DNA from: Mangrovimonas sp.
GTDB taxonomy: Bacteria; Bacteroidota; Bacteroidia; Flavobacteriales; Flavobacteriaceae
Direction: 5' to 3'
Assembly: GCA_020435705.1 (NCBI GenBank)
Contig: JAGQZG010000006.1
Coordinates: 1 to 36,116 of the forward strand
Length of the DNA stretch: 36,116 nucleotides
Positions 3,895 to 16,362 of this stretch are shown here, in pieces. The translations under genes were made by a program, and so were the position numbers. Each line of letters starts with the position of its first letter. Position 1 is the first letter of the stretch. The notes under the pieces are model-generated. The model saw nothing but the letters and a program-made list of their open reading frames with translations, did not search any database and had not been told where the DNA came from.

Positions 3895-3925
3895 TGTAAC
3901 ATCTAGTCAATTTCTTGTTACACTC
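3895..3925 (+). promoter_or_regulatory. Predicted operator: 21-bp-phased direct repeat upstream of the left arm
   Basis: TGTAACA (3895-3901) is repeated as TGTTACA (3916-3922), exactly 21 bp later, in the 205-bp gap before the DUF2092 gene. A near-copy of the whole 41-bp stretch (30 of 41 identical) occurs at 12120. Two half-sites two helical turns apart is the usual architecture for AraC-type DNA-binding domains such as the one ending the HTCS at 8141-12124. That this HTCS is the regulator is inferred from position and architecture. Confidence 0.7.
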
Positions 3926-3952
3926 ATGAAAGTTGATTTGACTCTTTCTTGG

Positions 3953-3960
3953 CAATTTAG
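3953..3960 (+). promoter_or_regulatory. Candidate -7 element of the left-arm promoter
   Basis: CAATTTAG is a degenerate match to the Bacteroidota -7 box TANNTTTG. It starts 58 bp after the first base of the operator at 3895, the same distance as CATCTTTG from the operator at 12120. A weak -7 box with no clear -33 box fits an activator-dependent promoter. Confidence 0.45.
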
Positions 3961-4009
3961 CAACTTGATTAACTGTTTTTAAAAAATTAAACACCAAATA
4001 ATTAAAACA

Positions 4010-4735
4010 ATGAAAAAACTCTTCTTTGCAATGGCCCTTCTTGCTTTTATAGGTAAGGGATATTCACAGGAAAAAGAAATTGATTCCACTGCCATCTTCA
4101 TTTTAGATAAAATGAGTGATGTAATTGGCGATTTGGAATCAGTAAGTTTCAACATGGAGTCTGTTGTTGACAGATTTGATGCCGAAAAAAACATGGAAAC
4201 AAAACACGGCAACAGTTCCATATCCATGGTTGGACCCGATAAACTTTTGGCCATCTCTTCAGGCGATCGTGGTAATTACGGGTTTTGGTATAATGGTACT
4301 TACCTCACGTATTATTCTTTTGACGAAAACAATTATGTGACCTTAGACGCTCCCGATACCATTTTGACCATGATAGACTCCATGCATGTTTCTTATGGTT
4401 TTAAATTCCCCGCAGCCGATTTCTTCTATCCGTCTTTTACTGACGATCTTATGGATAGCTTTAATTCCATTAAATATTTAGGAAAGAAAATGATTGCAGG
4501 AGAACAATGTTACCATATTCAAGCTACAAGTCCTGATACTGATTTGCAGCTTTGGATAACAAGTACTGGTTATATGCTCCCCAAAAAACTAATCATTATC
4601 TACAAGAATGAAGAAGATAAAAGATACGAAGCAACATTTAACACTTGGAAATTGAACCCCAATATTCCCAGTTCAATTTTTGAATTTACGCCGCCACCAC
4701 ATTCAAGATTAATTAGTATCATGGCAAAATCGTAA
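4010..4735 (+). CDS. DUF2092 domain protein, exported (LolA/LolB-like fold)
   Basis: The 241-residue protein has an N-terminal signal peptide (MKKLFFAMALLAFIGKGYSQ). The mature part begins with IFILDKMSDVIGDLESVSF, continues with a GPDKLLAISSGDRGNYGFWYNG stretch broken here for brevity, and includes GEQCYHIQA and LQLWITSTGYMLPKKL. This layout matches DUF2092 predicted periplasmic proteins, whose fold is thought to resemble the lipoprotein carriers LolA/LolB. The biochemical role is not established. It is the first gene after the predicted HTCS operator at 3895 and lies 26 bp before the DUF6515 gene, so the two are probably co-transcribed. An envelope role is inferred from the signal peptide and neighbours. 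Confidence 0.75.
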   Translation: MKKLFFAMALLAFIGKGYSQEKEIDSTAIFILDKMSDVIGDLESVSFNMESVVDRFDAEKNMETKHGNSSISMVGPDKLLAISSGDRGNYGFWYNGTYLTYYSFDENNYVTLDAPDTILTMIDSMHVSYGFKFPAADFFYPSFTDDLMDSFNSIKYLGKKMIAGEQCYHIQATSPDTDLQLWITSTGYMLPKKLIIIYKNEEDKRYEATFNTWKLNPNIPSSIFEFTPPPHSRLISIMAKS

Positions 4736-4761
4736 CCAATTAACCCCTTAAATTAAACATC

Positions 4762-5778
4762 ATGTTTACACATATAACATCCATAAAAATCAAAACAGGC
4801 CTTTTTGTCTTTTTAATAGCTTTTTTGTTCCCTCTACATAGTCAAGCCCAAAGATTGGGACACGGAGCGTCCCGCGGTGGCGGAAGAACAATGTCCCGTC
4901 CAGCCGCATCTACCCATAATGTTAGCAGGCCTAAGTCAATTAATGGCGGGCACACTAAAACCAATACACGCGATTTTTCAAAACCGTCAACCAAAAATAC
5001 CCCAGCAACAAGAAACAATACTGCAGGGAACAAAAAAATTGGGGCCAACAATACAATCAAAAACAACTCTGGAAGCTCTAAGAGAACGTCCAACATCAAA
5101 AATAAAAGCAACAATAAAGTTGGTAATAAAACCAATGTTGGCAATAAAAACAGAGTTGGCAACAACAATGTGAATATCAATATTGATAATAGCAGGCACG
5201 TTAATAACGTACGCAATACAAGGGTAAGGAGCAGCTCGGTAAGGTACACAAGACCCCCCTATGTATATGGTGGGTTTCATTACTATTGCCACCATCCGTA
5301 TTTTTATTTTCCTTATCGTCCATTCTACTGGGGGCCATATTATCATCCTTGGGGATATTTTGTGACAACACTGGCTACCACAGCCATTATTGTGAGTATT
5401 ATTGACGACGATGATGATGACGATAAAGAAGAATACCACTATGACAATGGAACTTATTACTTAAAAACCGAAGATGGTTTTGTTGCGGCGCAAGCTCCTG
5501 TGGGTGCCGAGGTTCCGTCTATTCCTAAAGAAGCCGAACAAGTAACCGTAAACAATACGACCAATTACTATTATGGTGGTGCCTTTTATGAAAAAAATTC
5601 GGAGGGCTATGTCGTAGTACCAGCCACTGCGGGAACTATTGTCCCTAACCTTCCTGAAGGTGGTGAAGAGGTTAAGATAGGTGATCAAACCTATGTGCAA
5701 TTTGGTGATACGTACTACCAGCCCGTTCAAATTGAAGGAAAAAACATGTACGAAATTGTAGAGGTTAAAGAAGAGTAA
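4762..5778 (+). CDS. DUF6515-type exported protein with Asn/Lys-rich N-terminal half
   Basis: This 338-residue protein has a signal peptide ending near HSQAQ. Residues about 30-150 are low-complexity and rich in Asn, Lys, Arg, Thr and Gly. A Tyr/His/Pro-rich segment follows, then one hydrophobic helix (FVTTLATTAIIVSII) followed immediately by a run of Asp. The C-terminal third has three related units with YYxxGTYY/AFYE/DTYYQPV cores and a VGAEVPSIP or AGTIVPNLP motif between them, as in the DUF6515 family. No enzymatic motif is seen. The disordered basic half and Asp run suggest a cell-envelope protein with charged surfaces. It is co-transcribed with the DUF2092 gene and is followed by a strong terminator at 5798. 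The family assignment is from memory of the repeat motif; function is unknown. Confidence 0.65.
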   Translation: MFTHITSIKIKTGLFVFLIAFLFPLHSQAQRLGHGASRGGGRTMSRPAASTHNVSRPKSINGGHTKTNTRDFSKPSTKNTPATRNNTAGNKKIGANNTIKNNSGSSKRTSNIKNKSNNKVGNKTNVGNKNRVGNNNVNINIDNSRHVNNVRNTRVRSSSVRYTRPPYVYGGFHYYCHHPYFYFPYRPFYWGPYYHPWGYFVTTLATTAIIVSIIDDDDDDDKEEYHYDNGTYYLKTEDGFVAAQAPVGAEVPSIPKEAEQVTVNNTTNYYYGGAFYEKNSEGYVVVPATAGTIVPNLPEGGEEVKIGDQTYVQFGDTYYQPVQIEGKNMYEIVEVKEE

Positions 5779-5797
5779 AACTGAAATACTTATTTTT

Positions 5798-5829
5798 GAG
5801 GTGGCCAAAATTTGGCCACCTCATTTTTT
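5798..5829 (+). terminator. Strong intrinsic terminator between DUF6515 and DUF748 genes
   Basis: GAGGTGGCCAAA (5798-5809) pairs with TTTGGCCACCTC (5811-5822) around a single base, and a run of six T follows at 5824-5829. It lies 19 bases after the DUF6515 stop and 32 bases before the DUF748 start. The downstream gene therefore either has its own promoter or is expressed at a reduced level by read-through. Confidence 0.85.
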
Positions 5830-5861
5830 AATGTGAGCCAATCAATCAACCTGTCAAACTC

Positions 5862-8027
5862 ATGGCTTCAAGGAAACGCATAGTACGGATTTCTCTTTTG
5901 ACACTGCTAGGAATCATTCTTATAACTCTTGTTTTTTTGCCTTTGGCAGTTAAAAATTATGCTATAAAACACAGTAAAGAATTACTGGGTAGACAAATTG
6001 ACATTGAGAAACTTAAGTTCAACTACTTCACGGGAACTCTCAGAATATACGGTTTCAAAATGTTTGAACAGAATGAAAAAGATGTGTTTACTTCATTTGA
6101 TACTCTTATCGTAAACACCGAACCCTACAAGTTAATAAACAATACCAAATCCATTGAGCAATTTTACCTGGAAGGCCTTAACGTAAACATCATCAAAAAA
6201 GATTCGGCTTACAATTTTGATGATTTGATCGCTTTTTTCATGGCTAAAGATTCCGTTCCCAAAGATTCTTTAGAGGCAACTGTCTTTAAATATGCTCTTT
6301 CAAACTTAGAGCTCAAGCATGCCAGTTTCAATGTGTATGAATCTAATTTGGATCATACGACTACGGTTGAAGATCTTTCATTCTTTATTCCATTTATAGG
6401 CTGGGATCAAGAAAACAAAAGTACTGCCGATATTAAGTTCAACTTTAAAAAAGGAGGGTATTTTGAATCTTCTTTCAATGTTAATCCTACCAATGGTGAG
6501 TTTGATGCTTCTGTGGTGGTAAAAGATTTATACCTAGACCCTTTTTATAAGTATGCAGCACAATATGCCCTTATCAATACTCTGGAAGGGAGAGTGAGCA
6601 CCAAACTTAAAATTGAAGGCAACATTTACACCCCGCAAACCTCTTTGGTCTCGGGCAATGTTTCCTTGAATGATTTTTTAATGACCGATACAACTAACAA
6701 GAAAATATTAGGTTCAAAACAGGTAACCTGTGATTTGGAAGCACTGGATATTTCCAAAAACTCCTATAAAATTGAATCTGTAACTATTGATGATCCTTAT
6801 GCTTATTTCCAGTTGGATTCTATTTCGAACAATCTCTTTAGAACTTTTAAATATGACCCGAATGAGCCTTCTCATGAGGTAACTTCGGATACAATTTCTT
6901 CAAATGTATATTATGCCATTAACCATTTCAAAGTAAATGACGGTACCTTAGATTATACAGATAATTTAACTGGACAGCCCTTTGATTACCATTTAAGTCA
7001 AATTGATATCAATACCAACAACATTCTCAGTGACAGCAAATGGATAGATATTAATTCCCAAATGTTGCTTAACAATCGTGGCTCCCTAAATGCCCAGATA
7101 GGATTCAATCCTTCAGATCCTTTATATACCAATCTGGATCTTGAAGTGAAAAACTTTTTGTTATCCGATTTAAATATTTACTCAACCTATTATACTGGGC
7201 ATTCGGTTATTCAAGGAGATATGTTCTATTATTCGCATTCAACAATTACCAATGGTGATATTACTAGCGAAAATAAACTCGTTATTAAAGATGTATCTGT
7301 TAACAGTAACAAAAAAGGATTGGTTACACTCCCCTTAAAATTCGTAATCTATATACTAAAAGACAAAAATGGAGATATTGACCTCGATGTTCCCGTAAGA
7401 GGAGACCTCAAAAATCCCGAAATTGATGTTTGGAAAATTGTATGGACAACCATAAAAAAACTCATTTTCAATACTGCGGATAATCCCGTTAAAAGTCTGG
7501 CAAAGCTTGTAGATGCCAATCCTAAAGACCTTGAAAACATCTCTTTTGTTTATCCCGACACCATCCCTGGCGAATCACAACAAAAGCAATTAGACCTCAT
7601 CCTGAAGTTAGAAAAAATGAAGCCGGGATTGAAAATTGAAATGGGCTATGCGGCAGACACTCTTTACCTAAGAGAGCTTGTTTTGAATCAAAAAATAGCC
7701 GATTTGTATACCCGAAAAACTCAAAAAAAGGCGAGTAACGAGAAAGAGATTGAAACCTTTGTTTATTCTGAAATACAATCTGACACCTTGAAAATTGAAG
7801 ATGCTAAGCTACTGTTGATTGGTGGCGAAAACAGCTTAGACTCTTTAACACATCTCTACTCCAAATCCCTTAAAACAAATGTGAGTCGTTATATTATAGA
7901 CAAAGAGTTAAACTCCAAAATTATTGTTACTGATGCAAAAGAAGCTCCTGGGAAAAAAGCTAACGAGTTTCTTGTAAACTATTCCATGAAGGAAGAGGAA
8001 GCCAGTTCATCTCCAGAAGAACAATAA
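5862..8027 (+). CDS. DUF748 (AsmA-like) membrane-anchored envelope protein
   Basis: The 721-residue protein has one N-terminal membrane helix at about residues 9-28 (SLLTLLGIILITLVFLPLAV). A long periplasmic part follows, beginning RQIDIEKLKFNYFTGTLRI, a typical AsmA/DUF748 opening. The middle carries repeating beta-rich units and the LVTLPLKFVIYILKDKNGDI motif with DVPVRGDLKNPEIDVWKIVW, which is highly characteristic of DUF748. AsmA-like proteins are bridge-like or assembly factors that help lipids or outer-membrane components cross the periplasm; the specific cargo is unknown. A strong terminator precedes the gene. The HTCS gene follows after 113 bp with no clear terminator between. Confidence 0.85.
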   Translation: MASRKRIVRISLLTLLGIILITLVFLPLAVKNYAIKHSKELLGRQIDIEKLKFNYFTGTLRIYGFKMFEQNEKDVFTSFDTLIVNTEPYKLINNTKSIEQFYLEGLNVNIIKKDSAYNFDDLIAFFMAKDSVPKDSLEATVFKYALSNLELKHASFNVYESNLDHTTTVEDLSFFIPFIGWDQENKSTADIKFNFKKGGYFESSFNVNPTNGEFDASVVVKDLYLDPFYKYAAQYALINTLEGRVSTKLKIEGNIYTPQTSLVSGNVSLNDFLMTDTTNKKILGSKQVTCDLEALDISKNSYKIESVTIDDPYAYFQLDSISNNLFRTFKYDPNEPSHEVTSDTISSNVYYAINHFKVNDGTLDYTDNLTGQPFDYHLSQIDINTNNILSDSKWIDINSQMLLNNRGSLNAQIGFNPSDPLYTNLDLEVKNFLLSDLNIYSTYYTGHSVIQGDMFYYSHSTITNGDITSENKLVIKDVSVNSNKKGLVTLPLKFVIYILKDKNGDIDLDVPVRGDLKNPEIDVWKIVWTTIKKLIFNTADNPVKSLAKLVDANPKDLENISFVYPDTIPGESQQKQLDLILKLEKMKPGLKIEMGYAADTLYLRELVLNQKIADLYTRKTQKKASNEKEIETFVYSEIQSDTLKIEDAKLLLIGGENSLDSLTHLYSKSLKTNVSRYIIDKELNSKIIVTDAKEAPGKKANEFLVNYSMKEEEASSSPEEQ

Positions 8028-8034
8028 ATGAGGT

Positions 8035-8062
8035 AGTTACGGTTTGATCCTTATTTGTTAAA
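8035..8062 (+). promoter_or_regulatory. Weak candidate HTCS autoregulatory site
   Basis: AGTTACG (8035-8041) and TGTTAAA (8056-8062) lie exactly 21 bp apart upstream of the HTCS start. Each is an imperfect match (5/7 and 6/7) to the TGTWACA half-site at 3895 and 12120. Surrounding bases do not match the two strong copies, and no -7-like box sits at the same distance. It is recorded as a possibility only. Confidence 0.25.
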
Positions 8063-8140
8063 ATGTTTTCTTCCCTTATATGAATTCTCAATCATAAATC
8101 TTACTTTTAACTCTAATCAACCAAACCTTCTCTTGGCATA

Positions 8141-11100
8141 ATGTCCAAAACTAGAACCATTCTTGTTGTTCTATTTTTAATCTTTCCCCTATTAAAATTA
8201 ACAGGGCAAAGCTATCTCTTTGATGTTCAAAAAATTAATATTGAAAATGGTCTTCCAGACAGGAGTGCTTTTTATCTTGATGAAGATAACGAGGGTTTTA
8301 TTTGGGTAAGCTTACGTGGCAAAATATGTCGTTATGACGGCTATATGTTTAAAACCTACAATTCCTCCCAATTAAATATTGGTGATAATTATAGTGCTTT
8401 CATAGCAATTGATAGTATTGGCAACATACTTTACAGCGAAAATGATAGAGTGCGGGATAAGAACAGTGGCATTATAAACCCCTCAAAAGACAGTATCTAT
8501 TCCTTTGAGGACTTTTCAAAAGGATTATTAGAATCAAACAAAGTATTCAAACTCCATAAATCAACACAAGACAAAAACACTATTTACTTAAACACGTTAA
8601 AGGGAGAAGTATATAAGTATGACGGTTCCTTTCAAAAAATATATCAATTCCCCAATCAAAAAAAATACGTCTTCTCTTGTGAAAAAGTAGATGATGGCTA
8701 TTGGATTCTTGGCCAAAGTGTTTTAAGAAAAATAAATTTCAATCAAGAAGAAGTTGAAAGCTATTCTATTTCTGAGCCCTATGATTTATTGTTTGACATC
8801 AAAAGCTTATCGCCTGAGCTTGTCTTAGAAAGTAGAGACCACTTTAATGAAAAACGCTATTGGACACTAAAAAATAGTGCGCTTATCCCATATGAGCTGC
8901 CCAATGCAAAAGGAAGAGTCCAAATATTTGCTATTACTGAAGATTTAATTTACTATTCTGATGACAATGTGCTATACATTTCAGACAAAGTGGGCCGTAT
9001 ACTTTACACGTATAATGAGATAGATCTAGCGGGGACAAATTTCAGCTATATTGATGCATTCATAGACAGCCAGAATATTCTTTGGATAACCTGCGGAAAC
9101 GGAATCTATAAAATTGTTACCAAAAAATCTCTTTTTAAAACGTATCACAAAAATTATAGTATCCGAGGTATTTTTCAAGATGGGAACGAGTTATTCATTG
9201 GAGGTTATGGTTCAAATATCAAGATAAACTTACTTAACGGAAAAACTCAACCCTTTTTTGATGATAATTCTACTGCTGTTCATTTTTTAAGGGATCCAGA
9301 CCATCCGGATTCTTTATGGGTGGGCACTATTTTGAAAGAACTTTGTAAATACAACCCAAAAACCGACCAATACAAAACATATTACTCAAAAGAAAACCTG
9401 TCGCTTGATTTTCCGTTTATCAATTCCATAACAAAGAAACTCTGGGTGGGCTCCAGTGGCGGACTCTTTTACTTGGATAAAAACCTTAAAAAGCTTGAGT
9501 ATTTTTCAACCCCTGATTTGAACGAGAATGTAGCCGTAAAACACACTTATCAAAATAAAGAAGGTCTATGGATAGTCACCGATCACGGTCTGTTTTTAAT
9601 GGACGCAAAGTCGGAAACCATTGTAAAATACTTGTCAAAAAAAACCGGATTCCCAAGTGACCATTTATTGTACCTGTATGAAGACAAAGAAGGAATTTTT
9701 TGGATAGGCACAAAGGACATAGGGCTCATTAAATGGGATAAGAAGAAAGATTCTTTCCGAATATTCGATGATACTAACGGATTGTCCAACAATACCATTT
9801 ATGCAGTTTATGAAGACAATCATGATTTTTTATGGCTTACTAGTAATTATGGCCTAATGTCTTTTAATAAAAATAATTTTAACACTCGTGTTTACTTGCC
9901 TCAAGATGGGATTCCGCATGAAGAATTTAATACCTTTTCTCATTTCAAAGCTACAGATGGAACATTGTATTTTGGGGGGTTAAATGGCGTTATCTCATTT
10001 AATCCAGACGATCTTTATGGGAAAGAGCAAGACAACTTTCCTATTCACATCACCAATATTAAATTACTCTCCGAGACCAGTGATGATTTTATTGATAGGA
10101 CCAAAAATTTTCTTCAAACCAACCAAATAATCCTCAATCCCAATGATGTAAGATTGGAAATTGAAGTTAGCCTTTTAGACTTTACAAACCCTGAAACAAA
10201 TCAGTACACCTATCAAATAGAAGGCTTGCATAAACAATGGCTATTTGCTGACCAAAATAAAATTGTTTTGCCCAAGCTCCCGCATGGCGACTATATTCTT
10301 AATGTGAGAGGAAAAGGGGCTTCTGGGAACTGGTCCGCCAATATTCTGAAAATTCCCATTCATGTAAATACTCCTTTTTATTTAAAACGACTCTTTCTTA
10401 CTTGGGTTTCCTTGGGCTTTTTAGCCCTTGTGTTTATTTATATAAGATTACGTACCCGTAAATTAAAGAACGACCGAAAACGCTTGGAGGCCGAAGTGTA
10501 TAAAAGAACGAAACAAATAGAATGGGATAAACAAACCATTGCCTCTCAAGCCGAAGCTTTAACCGAATTGGATAAGGCCAAAAACCGGTTCTTCTCAAAT
10601 ATAACACACGAATTCAAAACACCGTTAACACTCATTATTGGGCCATTAGAGCAGCTTATACAAGAAGAACCCCCTCCAAATATTTTTAAAAGAAGAATTC
10701 ATGGAGTTGTAAAAAATGCCAAACGAATTCAAGATCTTATTAACCAGTTATTGGATTTGTCCCAATTGGAGAGTGGTCAAATGAAACTCAAGTACACTCA
10801 AACTGATATGATTTCGTACAGTAGAGATATTACAAAGAGATTTCAGGTTTTGGCCGAAAGAAAACAGCAAAAGCTATCCTTTCATTCTGAACTCCACCAA
10901 TGGCACATTGCTTTAGATGCTGATAAATGGCAAAAGATTTTGTTCAATTTGATTTCCAACGCCATAAAATTTACCCCTGAAGCAAAAAATATAGATGTGT
11001 ATCTGAACAGAATTTATCAGGGAAAGGATGAATTCATTTCTTTAAAAGTGAAAGATGAAGGTATTGGTATTGATCAAGAAAACATCCAAAAAATCTTTGA

Positions 11101-12124
11101 CCGTTTTTACCAAGTCGATTTATCCAACACAAAAGAACAACAAGGAACCGGTATCGGGCTTTCCTTAGTGTACGACCTCATAATATTACAGGGAGGAGAA
11201 ATTGAGATTGATAGCAATCCTGGTTTGGGCACAACATTCCATGTAAAAATTCCCGTCCCCAATAGTGAAAGTATAGACTTGAATAGTGATTCTCATATGA
11301 CCTTAATTGACTTGCCTAACATCGAATTACTCACTGAAAAAAATGTCCCATTAGCAACAAACGAAAGTAAAAGTTTAGAAGGAGAATCATTGGAAGTATT
11401 GATTGTTGAGGACAGCAATGATATGCGGGAATATATACGGCAGTGTCTCAAACATCTCAATTATAACATAACCGAAGCCATTAATGGCGAAGAAGGCTAT
11501 ATAAAAGCTCAAAGTATCGTGCCCGATTTGATTATTTCGGACATCATGATGCCAAAAAAAGACGGCTATAGCTTGGTTCAGGAAATTAGGGGCAACATAA
11601 GCACTTCTCACATTCCTTTAATTCTTCTAACGGCAAAAAGTTCTTTGGATAGTAAACTCAAAGGACTAAGACATGGTGCCGATGTATACCTCACCAAACC
11701 TTTTAGCCCTAAGGAGTTGATTCTTCGAATGGAAAAACTAATAGAAATACGTAAGCTTCTCCAGAAAAGATACACCAACGATTCCATAAAGACCAACAAC
11801 GCCATTTTTGAACAGGAAGATGAATTTATTGCAAAATTAAAAGCTTACATAATAGAAAATCTGGACGATCCCAATTTAAACGGCGATACCATAGGAAAAG
11901 CCTTGGCGCTCAGCAGGGTTCACCTGTACCGAAAATTAAAAGCACTAACCAATCAATCTATTACGGAATATGTGAAGACCATTAGATTGCAAGAAGCCTT
12001 TAAGTTAATACAGGAAGGAAAATTAAATGTTTCCGAAATTGCTTTCCAAACGGGGTTTACTTCCGTTAGCCACTTTTCCAGATCCTTCAAGGAAGCGTAC
12101 GGGAAGTCTCCTACCAAAATGTAA
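8141..12124 (+). CDS. Hybrid two-component system regulator (HTCS): sensor, kinase, receiver and AraC domain in one protein
   Basis: The 1327-residue protein has a signal peptide (to about residue 23). Two-component regulator propeller repeats follow (e.g. INIENGLPDRSAF, EGIFWIGTKDIGLIKWD, HDFLWLTSNYGLMSF), then a Y_Y_Y domain (about 675-745) and one membrane helix (about 751-771). The kinase has phospho-acceptor H823 in SNITHEFKTPLTL, an N-box at N940 and glycine boxes DEGIGID and GTGIGLSL. The receiver has phospho-acceptor D1134 in IISDIMMPKKDGYS and a C-terminal LTAK...KPF. An AraC-type helix-turn-helix ends the chain (about 1225-1327). HTCSs normally sense a glycan fragment in the periplasm and activate a nearby polysaccharide locus. 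Here the neighbours are envelope DUF proteins and a sulfatase, without SusC/SusD. Operator-like repeats lie before both flanking operons, and one overlaps this gene's stop codon. The ligand is unknown. Confidence 0.97.
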   Translation: MSKTRTILVVLFLIFPLLKLTGQSYLFDVQKINIENGLPDRSAFYLDEDNEGFIWVSLRGKICRYDGYMFKTYNSSQLNIGDNYSAFIAIDSIGNILYSENDRVRDKNSGIINPSKDSIYSFEDFSKGLLESNKVFKLHKSTQDKNTIYLNTLKGEVYKYDGSFQKIYQFPNQKKYVFSCEKVDDGYWILGQSVLRKINFNQEEVESYSISEPYDLLFDIKSLSPELVLESRDHFNEKRYWTLKNSALIPYELPNAKGRVQIFAITEDLIYYSDDNVLYISDKVGRILYTYNEIDLAGTNFSYIDAFIDSQNILWITCGNGIYKIVTKKSLFKTYHKNYSIRGIFQDGNELFIGGYGSNIKINLLNGKTQPFFDDNSTAVHFLRDPDHPDSLWVGTILKELCKYNPKTDQYKTYYSKENLSLDFPFINSITKKLWVGSSGGLFYLDKNLKKLEYFSTPDLNENVAVKHTYQNKEGLWIVTDHGLFLMDAKSETIVKYLSKKTGFPSDHLLYLYEDKEGIFWIGTKDIGLIKWDKKKDSFRIFDDTNGLSNNTIYAVYEDNHDFLWLTSNYGLMSFNKNNFNTRVYLPQDGIPHEEFNTFSHFKATDGTLYFGGLNGVISFNPDDLYGKEQDNFPIHITNIKLLSETSDDFIDRTKNFLQTNQIILNPNDVRLEIEVSLLDFTNPETNQYTYQIEGLHKQWLFADQNKIVLPKLPHGDYILNVRGKGASGNWSANILKIPIHVNTPFYLKRLFLTWVSLGFLALVFIYIRLRTRKLKNDRKRLEAEVYKRTKQIEWDKQTIASQAEALTELDKAKNRFFSNITHEFKTPLTLIIGPLEQLIQEEPPPNIFKRRIHGVVKNAKRIQDLINQLLDLSQLESGQMKLKYTQTDMISYSRDITKRFQVLAERKQQKLSFHSELHQWHIALDADKWQKILFNLISNAIKFTPEAKNIDVYLNRIYQGKDEFISLKVKDEGIGIDQENIQKIFDRFYQVDLSNTKEQQGTGIGLSLVYDLIILQGGEIEIDSNPGLGTTFHVKIPVPNSESIDLNSDSHMTLIDLPNIELLTEKNVPLATNESKSLEGESLEVLIVEDSNDMREYIRQCLKHLNYNITEAINGEEGYIKAQSIVPDLIISDIMMPKKDGYSLVQEIRGNISTSHIPLILLTAKSSLDSKLKGLRHGADVYLTKPFSPKELILRMEKLIEIRKLLQKRYTNDSIKTNNAIFEQEDEFIAKLKAYIIENLDDPNLNGDTIGKALALSRVHLYRKLKALTNQSITEYVKTIRLQEAFKLIQEGKLNVSEIAFQTGFTSVSHFSRSFKEAYGKSPTKM

Positions 12125-12150
12125 CATCTGGTCAACTATTGGTAACACGT
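12120..12150 (+). promoter_or_regulatory. Predicted operator: 21-bp-phased direct repeat upstream of the right arm
   Basis: TGTAACA (12120-12126) is repeated as GGTAACA (12141-12147), exactly 21 bp later. The first half-site includes the TAA stop codon of the HTCS gene (12122-12124). The shared core with the copy at 3895 includes TGTAACATCT, GTCAA, ACAC and TGAAA. The 85-bp gap between the HTCS gene and the next start codon would hold the whole promoter. Confidence 0.7.
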
Positions 12151-12177
12151 GTGAAAACTGTTCTGATGCCCTTTAAA

Positions 12178-12185
12178 CATCTTTG
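12178..12185 (+). promoter_or_regulatory. Candidate -7 element of the right-arm promoter
   Basis: CATCTTTG matches TANNTTTG at seven of eight positions. It starts 58 bp after the operator at 12120 and 25 bp before the ATG at 12210. The equivalent box at 3953 has the identical offset from its operator. Confidence 0.5.
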
Positions 12186-12209: not shown

Positions 12210-12488
12210 ATGACTAAAGATGAAGTAAATACCATACTTCAATCTATTATTATCAAAAACTTTCGTGTAGATGCGGAACATTTCTATTGGGACAAACCTA
12301 TAGAATCTATTAATGAAGATTTTAAAACTTTAGGGTATTTGGTTTTTTTGGAGCAACTGATCAACAAAAAATTCAAAACCAAGGTGCCTATTTTGGAAAA
12401 CATTATTTCCAACATCCACACGCCAAATGATATTTCTAATTTAATACTAAAAGAATTATCTGATTTAAAAAGACTTAAAAAAATTTAA
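12210..12488 (+). CDS. Acyl-carrier-protein-like small protein lacking the phosphopantetheine serine
   Basis: This 92-residue protein starts MTKDEVNTILQSI. I prefer the ATG at 12210 over the upstream in-frame TTG at 12183, because 12183 falls inside the predicted -7 box. Its length and helix pattern fit an acyl carrier protein. LVFLEQLINKKFKTKVP aligns without gaps with the helix II region of ACPs (LVELVMALEEEFGIEIP), and TPNDISNLILKEL matches helix IV. The DSL motif that carries the 4'-phosphopantetheine arm is replaced by TLG, so no attachment serine is present there. It probably cannot carry acyl groups in the usual way. It is the first gene of the right arm, 54 bp before the arylsulfatase. 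Function is unknown; a protein-protein docking role is a guess. Confidence 0.7.
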   Translation: MTKDEVNTILQSIIIKNFRVDAEHFYWDKPIESINEDFKTLGYLVFLEQLINKKFKTKVPILENIISNIHTPNDISNLILKELSDLKRLKKI

Positions 12489-12542: not shown

Positions 12543-14987
12543 ATGAACATTTCAATTTCTACACAATTTAAAAGACTGTTTTTATTTTGTGTACTGCTGA
12601 GCTTTCTACAAAGCTGTAACCAACAAAAAGCTGAATCTGAGCAAAAACAAGCTTCTAGAGATGATGCTTTTCAGGGAAAAATTGCATTGGACGTAAGGGA
12701 TTCTAAACCCGACTGGGGGCCTTATACGCCAAAGTCTGCTCCTGAAGGAGCGCCAAACATCCTTTTTATTCTGTATGATGATACGGGCTTAGCGGCATGG
12801 TCTCCATACGGTGGGCGTATCAACATGCCAACAATGGATAGGCTTGCTGCCAATGGGTTAACCTATACTCAATGGCATACCACGGCTTTATGTTCGCCTA
12901 CGCGATCAACCATCCTTACCGGTAGGAATCACCATTTAAACGGCATGGCTGCCATTACCGAAGCTGCCGATGGGTATCCTGGTGCGAATGGTAGAGTTCC
13001 TGCCGATTGTACACCTTTTGCCCAAATCTTAAGGGACAACGGATGGAGTACTTTTTGGGTGGGTAAAAACCATAACGTGCCTGAAAACGACGTGGCTCCT
13101 GGAGGAAGTAGAGCTTCATGGCCTACACAAAATGGATGGGATCGTTTTTATGGGTTCTTGGGAGGTGAAACCAACCAATGGTATCCCGATCTAGTGGAAG
13201 ACAACCATTTTGTTGAAGCTCCCTATAGCCCAGAAGAAGGCTATCACTTGTCTAAAGATTTAGCCGATCATGCCATAGGAATGATCAGAGACCAGCAAGC
13301 TACCAATCCTTCCAAACCTTGGTACATGTGGTACAACCCAGGGGCAAACCATGCGCCTCATCATGCACCTGAAGAGTATATTGCTAAATACAAAGGAAAA
13401 TTTGATGACGGTTATGACGCCTACCGTGAGTGGGTTGTGGCCCGAATGAAAGAAAAAGGCATTATCCCTCAAGATACTCAACTAACGCCTTTTAACCCGA
13501 TGCCTGAAGATATGGCTAACGCCGCAGACTATGTGCGCCCATGGAGCGAATTGAATGATGATGAGAAAAAACTGTTCTCTAAATTAGCCGAAGTGTATGC
13601 TGGATTCTCTGAATACACCGATGCTCAAGTGGGCAGAGTTATAGACTACTTAGAATCTACTGGACAATTGGAAAACACTATCGTGCTTTATGCAGCTGAC
13701 AATGGTGCCTCCGGAGAAGGAAGTCCTAATGGTTCTGTAAACGAAAATAAATTCTTTAACGGGTATCCAGACGAACTTTCCGAAAACCTTAAGTACATGG
13801 ATGTTCTAGGCGGCCCAGACACTTATGAGCACTATCCAACAGGTTGGGCTGCAGCATTCTCTGCACCATTCAAAATGTTTAAGCGTTACTCACAATTTGC
13901 TGGTGGAACTAACGATCCGTTAGTAATCTCTTGGCCAAAAGGAATTAAAGCAAGAGGCGAAATAAGAAATCAGTACCATCACTCTGTAGATATTGTTCCT
14001 ACCTTATTGGAGGTCTGTGGTGTAGAAATGCCAGAGTATTATAACGGCGTAAAGCAAACACCACTATCTGGAGTTTCTATGGCCTATACCTTTGATGCCA
14101 AACCAGACGATCCAACTCAGAAAAAAGTACAGTACTATTGTATGTTGGGAACTAGAGGTATCTATAAAGACGGCTGGAAAGCAGTGGCCATCCACTCACC
14201 AATTTCCGGAAAAGGACATTTTGACAAAGATGTATGGGAACTTTACAATTTAAATGAAGACCGCTCAGAATCTCACAATCTAGCCGAAGAAAACCCAGAG
14301 AAACTTCAGGAATTGATTGATGAATGGTTCAAACAAGCTGAAATAAACAAGGTTTTACCATTAGATGATAGAGTAGCTGCTGAGGTATTGGGTCAAGAAA
14401 GACCTTCTCAAGAACCTCCAAGAGATAGATATTTGTACTATCCTGGCACGTCTCCTGTGCCTGAAGGCGTTGCTGTAAACGTTAGGGGAAGAAACTACAA
14501 AATCCTAGCCAATGTAGAAATCACCGATGCTAACGCTTCAGGAGTTATATTTGCTCACGGCTCAAGATTTGGCGGTCATTCCTTGTTCATTAAAGATAAA
14601 AAACTGTATTATGTCTATAATTTCTTGGGTATTAAGCCAGAACAAGTCTTTGTTTCAAACGTAACCTTAAAACCTGGTAAATACACTTTCGGGGTTGAGT
14701 TTACTAAAGAAGGTACTGGAGACCACGGGGAATCTACGGGTCATACTAAGCTGTATATTGATGACAATGTTGTGGCTGAAGGTCCCATGAAAACACAACC
14801 TGCCAAATTCACCCTCTCTGGGGACGGTCTTTGTGTGGGCTACGATAGTGGAGATGCCGTAAGTGAATTGTACCAATCTCCTGGGGAGTTTAAGGGCGGC
14901 ATCATTGACGGCGTAGGTGTTACTGTTGAGGGTACTCCTTATGTAGACTTAGAGGCTGAAGCCAAACGGATGATGATGAGTCATTAA
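12543..14987 (+). CDS. Arylsulfatase, Cys-type, lipoprotein
   Basis: The 814-residue sulfatase has a lipoprotein signal (LSFLQSC, lipobox Cys near residue 25), so it is probably anchored in an envelope membrane. Active-site residues are in place: metal ligands D79-D80 in ILFILYDDTG, the formylglycine precursor C117 in CSPTR with R121, HHLNG just after, the K and H of GKNHN, and D386-N387 in AADNGAS. The layout resembles the large Pseudomonas AtsA-type arylsulfatases, with a C-terminal beta domain that includes GVIFAHGSRFGGHSLF and LSGDGLCVGYDSGD. It hydrolyses a sulfate ester; the natural substrate cannot be read from sequence. C117 must be oxidised to formylglycine by FGE or anSME. It is the second gene of the right arm and ends before a terminator at 15101. 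Confidence 0.93.
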   Translation: MNISISTQFKRLFLFCVLLSFLQSCNQQKAESEQKQASRDDAFQGKIALDVRDSKPDWGPYTPKSAPEGAPNILFILYDDTGLAAWSPYGGRINMPTMDRLAANGLTYTQWHTTALCSPTRSTILTGRNHHLNGMAAITEAADGYPGANGRVPADCTPFAQILRDNGWSTFWVGKNHNVPENDVAPGGSRASWPTQNGWDRFYGFLGGETNQWYPDLVEDNHFVEAPYSPEEGYHLSKDLADHAIGMIRDQQATNPSKPWYMWYNPGANHAPHHAPEEYIAKYKGKFDDGYDAYREWVVARMKEKGIIPQDTQLTPFNPMPEDMANAADYVRPWSELNDDEKKLFSKLAEVYAGFSEYTDAQVGRVIDYLESTGQLENTIVLYAADNGASGEGSPNGSVNENKFFNGYPDELSENLKYMDVLGGPDTYEHYPTGWAAAFSAPFKMFKRYSQFAGGTNDPLVISWPKGIKARGEIRNQYHHSVDIVPTLLEVCGVEMPEYYNGVKQTPLSGVSMAYTFDAKPDDPTQKKVQYYCMLGTRGIYKDGWKAVAIHSPISGKGHFDKDVWELYNLNEDRSESHNLAEENPEKLQELIDEWFKQAEINKVLPLDDRVAAEVLGQERPSQEPPRDRYLYYPGTSPVPEGVAVNVRGRNYKILANVEITDANASGVIFAHGSRFGGHSLFIKDKKLYYVYNFLGIKPEQVFVSNVTLKPGKYTFGVEFTKEGTGDHGESTGHTKLYIDDNVVAEGPMKTQPAKFTLSGDGLCVGYDSGDAVSELYQSPGEFKGGIIDGVGVTVEGTPYVDLEAEAKRMMMSH

Positions 14988-15184: not shown

Positions 15185-16362
15185 ATGCATCGTTCCATCA
15201 TTCCGTTATTTGGCTTGGCTGCTCTAATTTTATGTGTCGCTTCCTGTAAAGACGAAAAAAAAGAAGTAAGCGCATCTTTATCTTGCTATTCGTTGGATAC
15301 CAACAAGCTTATAGGGAAAATGTACCTGGACAGTATGCTTTTAAGGAAGTTTCGGAAATACAACTAGATTCTTCCGAAGGGCTTTCTTATAGTGGTATGG
15401 TAAAAATCACAGGAGGTATTTATACCATGGGCGGGAACATTCCCGAAGGTATGGAAGATTTGCCTTCAACAGCGTTACCACAACCAGATGAAACCCCACT
15501 ACATGAGGTTCAGGTTGGCGATTTCTGGATTGATGAACATGAAGTCACCAACGCGCAGTTTAAAAAATTTGTTGATGCTACAGGATATGTCACAACTGCT
15601 GAAATTCCCGTAGATTGGGAACTTCTGAAAACACAGCTCCCTCCGGACACACCCAAACCAAGTGACGAAGATTTACAACCTGGGTCGTTGGTTTTCCACT
15701 ACATAGATAAATCCATACCCAAAGACAATTTAGGAAATTGGTGGAAATTTGAGCATGGTGTGAATTGGAAACATCCATATGGGCCCGAGAGTTCCATTGA
15801 AGGAAAAGATAACTACCCCGTGGTGCATGTTTCTTGGTATGATGCTATTGCTTATGCCAAATGGGCCGGAAAACGATTGCCTACAGAAGCTGAGTGGGAA
15901 TACGCCGCCCGAAGTGGCAAAGCGAATACCATGTACCCTTGGGGAAATGAACGAATTAACCAAGGACAATACAAAGCCAATACATTACAGGGTGAATTCC
16001 CTTATAACAACACGATTGAAGATGGTTATGAGTATTTAGCTCCCGTCAAGTCTTTCTCACCCAATCCTGCAAAATTATATGATATGGCCGGAAACGTTTG
16101 GGAATGGACCTCCGATTGGTACAGTGCTAAATACTATTATGACCTAAGTCAGAATAATACCATTGCCAACAATCCTCACGGGCCTGAAAAATCATTTGAA
16201 GTTTACGACCCTTACGCAAACAACAAGACCATTAGAGGTGGTTCATTTCTATGCCATGACGATTGGTGTTCTGGTTTCAGAAACTCCAGACGAATGCGTT
16301 TAACTCCAGACAGCAGTATGGAACACGTTGGTTTTCGCTGTGTTAGAGATGTTCAACCATAA
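15185..16362 (+). pseudogene. Formylglycine-generating-enzyme-like (SUMF1 domain) lipoprotein, apparently frameshifted near its N-terminus
   Basis: From 15185 one frame encodes a lipoprotein signal ([20 protein letters not shown]) and stops at 15367. The SUMF1 domain lies in another frame, open from about 15250 to 16362, with only a TTG (15283) as a possible start and no signal peptide. Loss of one base between about 15263 and 15345 would split a single secreted protein this way. The domain aligns over its full length with [78 protein letters not shown] and VGFRC. The first catalytic Cys is kept (codon 16267), but the second, five residues later, is Asn (16282). It is therefore not a standard FGE. 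It follows the sulfatase it would be expected to mature. The frameshift could be a real mutation or an assembly error. Confidence 0.7.

Follow-up and report, generated by a model that had tools for sequence, protein, structure and literature searches.

Predicted operators with a 21-bp direct repeat before two operons flanking an HTCS gene in Mangrovimonas sp.

We analysed a window of 36,116 nucleotides from Mangrovimonas sp. (contig JAGQZG010000006.1), in which two similar DNA elements, each followed by a presumed operon, lie on either side of a gene encoding an HTCS with an AraC-type DNA-binding domain. These elements are, very probably, activator sites of that HTCS, which would switch on the operons beginning with the genes at 12210 and 4010. 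The original prediction, that this HTCS controls both operons, has gained for the right operon, a well supported target whose site is kept in orthologous loci; the left site is known from one genome only, where its promoter box is poor. We infer binding and activation at both elements from sequence features, and the extents of the two operons are likewise presumed.

Table 1 Predicted regulatory elements and genes of the window, with the orthologues of the 92-aa gene in other genomes
Feature	Coordinates	Strand	Remarks
Left operator (predicted)	3895-3931	+	Half-sites TGTAACATCTAGTCAA and TGTTACACTCATGAAA, 21 bp apart
-7-like box of the left promoter, CAATTTAG	3953-3960	+	Operator start +58; weak match to TAnnTTTG
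Periplasmic DUF2092 protein, first in the left operon	4010-4735	+	PF09865
DUF6515 protein, usual partner of DUF2092	4762-5778	+	PF20125; pair conserved
DUF748 protein, presumed same operon as DUF2092/DUF6515	5862-8027	+	PF05359
HTCS: Reg_prop/Y_Y_Y sensor, HisKA, HATPase, receiver (D1134), AraC-type HTH	8141-12124	+	Domains, orthologues
Right operator (predicted)	12120-12156	+	Half-sites TGTAACATCTGGTCAA and GGTAACACGTGTGAAA, 21 bp apart
-7-like box of the right promoter, CATCTTTG	12178-12185	+	Operator start +58
Small 92-aa protein, predicted acyl-carrier-protein-like fold	12210-12488	+	Present only with an HTCS orthologue
Sulfatase, presumed same operon as the 12210 gene	12543-14987	+	PF00884, orthologues
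FGE-sulfatase-domain protein, possibly in the 12210 operon	15283-16362	+	PF03781; gap of ~300 bp upstream
Orthologue of the 92-aa gene, L198	12967-13221		
Orthologue of the 92-aa gene, L199	12220-12462		
Orthologue of the 92-aa gene, L200	6969-7221	-	

Two similar elements flank the HTCS gene

The gene between the elements encodes, in a single chain, the sensor, HisKA, HATPase, receiver and HTH_18 domains of an AraC-type HTCS, as had been proposed, and D1134, previously suggested for mutation, is the receiver aspartate, in the motif DIMMP. The 41-bp blocks starting at 3895 and 12120 are identical at 30 of 41 positions (31 with a shifted 41-bp window), in agreement with the initial count, whereas the best 41-mer match in 1000 dinucleotide shuffles of both upstream regions never exceeded 28. 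Both contain two directly repeated half-sites whose starts are 21 bp apart, the arrangement of an HTCS operator: TGTAACA at 3895 and TGTTACA at 3916 on the left, TGTAACA at 12120 and GGTAACA at 12141 on the right. The distance of exactly 58 bp noted initially between the start of each element and its box, at 3953 and 12178, was also verified. The right element begins within the HTCS gene and includes its stop at 12122-12124. Kindred variants of the left box, which is weak by itself, occur at the same offset in two other loci (TAATTTAG and TACTTTAG, in L029 and L317). Another candidate site, upstream of the HTCS gene at 8035, has three mismatches to the TGTTACA pair and was not called.

Promoters of Bacteroidota use a -7/-33 consensus. 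In the mechanism that we propose, each half-site (approximately TGTWACA, then CA at positions 14-15) would bind one AraC-type domain of the HTCS, and the spacing of two helical turns would keep both halves of a dimer on the same side of the DNA, the downstream half-site falling roughly at the -33 region of the promoter, next to RNA polymerase. A periplasmic signal would lead to phosphorylation of D1134 and release of the DNA-binding domain, and the freed HTCS would bring RNA polymerase to the -7 box at its fixed +58 position, turning on the small-protein/sulfatase operon and the DUF2092-DUF6515-DUF748 operon. This resembles AraC at araI1-I2, where two direct half-sites are also 21 bp apart and the downstream one abuts the promoter; unlike AraC, the HTCS is a membrane protein, presumably regulated through phosphorylation.

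The right element is conserved with the HTCS and a small gene

Among 397 Flavobacteriaceae genomes, full-length orthologues of the HTCS occur in three further genomes, belonging to three other genera (43-44% identity in the search, 42-44% when aligned). In all three orthologous loci the element lies upstream of the operon at -5 from the HTCS stop, the stop codon being held within TG-TAA-CA, and is followed by a box at +58 and then by the orthologue of the 92-aa gene. The expectation that relatives keeping the HTCS would also keep the site is thus borne out at the right-hand position. The 92-aa gene itself was found in exactly the same 4 of 397 genomes as the HTCS orthologue, the other ten matches of its search being weak (E > 0.001). 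When the four right-hand promoters are compared with one another, 28-35 bases of the 42-bp operator block are identical, and the box, at +58 every time, retains 7-8 of its 8; the 16 bp that separate them keep 4-10, and identity drifts toward random both there and in the 24 bp after the box.

The genes further downstream vary: the window has the sulfatase there, and G129 has M20 and amidohydrolases together with OprB and a HAD protein. In G343, a distant second site, built in the same way and with its box at +58, precedes a lipocalin/OmpA/NlpE gene set, a predicted two-site layout that mirrors that of the window. No HTCS orthologue was found in the searched sister species of the three genomes with an orthologue (G129, G343 and G156), so the distribution of this HTCS is sporadic. 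In a Saprospiraceae relative (L063), whose HTCS is 38% identical, the 277 bp after the HTCS stop do not contain the element. A family-wide scan for element plus box returned only G000 and G129 and missed the element-bearing G156; it is weak evidence because the box of the search pattern was one base out of register, which costs three mismatches. The sulfatase also has sporadic orthologues (72-82% identity; L149 14464, L154 12148, L170 2957), closer than those of its neighbours, which suggests its transfer between genera.

A scan of the 2.77-Mb Mangrovimonas genome, proposed with the original prediction as a search for many copies at unrelated genes, found the full element just twice, with up to three mismatches allowed; since this draft assembly is 84% complete and split into 346 contigs, further copies may be missing from it. 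A bare TGTWACA pair lies directly downstream of three other HTCS genes of the same genome (L313, L318 and L324), so that the pair without the rest of the element is not unique to the HTCS studied here. The L324 HTCS (contig C303) has a VQLY helix and a TGTAACA pair 26 bp past its stop, lacks a good box at +58, and is followed by a sugar-porter-like gene.

The small protein encoded at 12210 belongs to no known family. Its AlphaFold2 model is mainly helical (pLDDT 87), and the top Foldseek matches of this model in the PDB are acyl carrier proteins (6lvu, TM-score 0.71/0.82, E 1.8e-3), which share its predicted four-helix fold. Sequence-profile comparison with the E. coli acyl carrier protein gave no match, so the likeness is one of predicted fold alone. 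Instead of the DSL-motif serine of acyl carrier proteins, the four orthologues have an invariant Asp-Phe-x-Thr-Leu, which opens the second long helix, and the serine that would be modified by phosphopantetheine is not conserved among them. Our guess is that this protein is an interaction module that carries no acyl group and might act on the HTCS.

The left element and its operon

The alternative that survives best, although we consider it rather unlikely, is that the HTCS acts at the right element alone, the left one having arisen by chance or duplication and having little effect. The weak left box, the TGTTACA form of the second half-site and the lack of a matching site ahead of DUF2092 in the relatives that were compared all point this way. 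Nevertheless, the left site retains a half-site, the 21-bp spacing and the box at +58 amid surrounding DNA that is otherwise unrelated, and the analogous distal second site in G343 favours a real left site. Control of both operons by the HTCS is the reading that we prefer for the window. It does not extend to DUF2092 operons in general: as those of the relatives examined lack the element, this operon is not generally under HTCS control.

DUF2092 and DUF6515 genes are adjacent in many Flavobacteriaceae (L143-L169, L171 and L172), some of these pairs lying near sulfatase, HAD or DUF748 genes; such pairs elsewhere are accompanied neither by this HTCS nor by the element.

Spacing and recognition helix in other HTCSs

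HTCSs are numerous sensors of Bacteroidota, most of them without a known target. Across HTCS-family loci, KGTWACA pairs peak sharply at a spacing of 21 bp, with 31 counts (symmetric pairs being scored twice, once per strand) versus 0 to 4 at other spacings. Those beside HTCS genes lie between -5 and +86 bp from the HTCS stop, and in 16 of 18 such loci a box of the form [TCA]AnnTTT(A/G) follows at +58, with no other offset within 40-82.

In G129 and G343, which belong to different genera, a 21-bp repeat resembling TGTAACA precedes genes for single-component AraC proteins (L208 5001, L210 6382). In principle, such sites could thus serve another AraC protein, and an AraC-family regulator other than the intervening HTCS might bind the two elements. 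We regard this as quite improbable: at the single-component genes the box-like sequence lies near +48, not +58, the element, the HTCS and the small gene co-occur in 4 of 397 genomes, and many HTCSs carry a repeat of their own adjoining their stop codon. It is less probable still that a dimeric repressor or a Crp-like factor binds the elements as inverted repeats (TGTAACA-N14-TGTTACA) since, although the two heptamers at 3895 are mutual reverse complements, those at 12120 and in all orthologues are directly repeated, and the CA at positions 14-15, which forms the outer contacts, is directly repeated too.

Recognition by the HTCS itself, as we propose, would fit a relation between the half-site and the first recognition helix of its AraC-type domain. 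In a first set of HTCSs, a TGTTACA pair accompanied the MQLH helix in 14 of 15 cases and a TGTAACA pair the [IV]HLY helix in 4 of 4, compared with 0 of 48 for other helices. The prediction was then recorded, and 100 new HTCS 3' flanks were collected, 99 of them usable. In this held-out set, five of seven MQLH HTCSs had the TGTTACA pair and a sixth (L308) had it with two mismatches, versus one TGTWACA pair among 91 HTCSs with other helices (1 of 92 counting the single VHLY case, L253, which was without the element). Pooling both sets, the TGTTACA pair is found with 19 of 22 MQLH helices and with 1 of 139 others, [IV]HLY excluded (Fisher p ~1e-20, a statistic that ignores shared descent); helix and half-site may co-vary merely as common markers of a clade. 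Eight further HTCSs combine the 21/58 geometry with other half-sites, TGAMAAAATA with SDSQLY helices and TGRAACA-like sequences with [ST]QLH helices; other periods between 15 and 29 bp occurred in at most one locus each.

We give about even chances to a general rule in which HTCSs throughout Bacteroidota share one invariable layout, with half-sites at 0 and 21 and the box at 58, and their first recognition helix dictates which half-site is read (MQLH for TGTTACA, [IV]HLY for TGTAACA, [ST]QLH for TGRAACA-like and SDSQLY for TGAMAAA). If true, this cis-rule and its link between helix and half-site would make the targets of many orphan HTCSs readable from sequence, and it would show HTCS control of gene sets beyond the classical sugar loci.

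Relation to known HTCS operators

The element was initially not known to have been described, a view that stands only in part, given that the 21-bp direct-repeat architecture is published for Bacteroides HTCSs. Ravcheev et al. (2013; PMC3878776) predicted direct repeats averaging 21 bp for 16 HTCSs of B. thetaiotaomicron and reported motif groups that track HTH clusters; thus, both the architecture and the idea that the motif follows the domain were already known. HTCS receiver-HTH fragments have also been found to bind predicted promoters once inhibition by the receiver is relieved (PMC11253607). As in the B. thetaiotaomicron operators described by Ravcheev et al. (PMC3878776), a direct repeat of ~21 bp precedes operons adjoining an AraC-type HTCS in our window. 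However, the operons described there are SusC/SusD polysaccharide loci, whereas neither SusC/SusD nor a TonB-receptor family was found among the 19 genes scanned around our HTCS (2-27971), which thus lacks the adjoining SusC/SusD pair of a polysaccharide utilization locus. Our system differs further in the overlap of the operator with the HTCS stop codon and in the +58 distance to the -7 box.

We saw neither a fixed distance to a -7 box nor a residue-level code in Ravcheev et al. (PMC3878776), and a literature search combining TGTTACA and Bacteroides yielded, among the matches listed, no paper recognisable by title or abstract as dealing with HTCS operators. Relative to the literature that we found, the +58 box beside many unrelated HTCSs and the prediction of the half-site from the helix thus appear to be new.

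As to the genes that follow the MQLH HTCSs (L012, L014, L018, L021, L313, L317 and L318), they are no obvious sugar-uptake loci; on a reading of their sequences, they apparently encode secreted or surface proteins, either repeat-rich or small and periplasmic.
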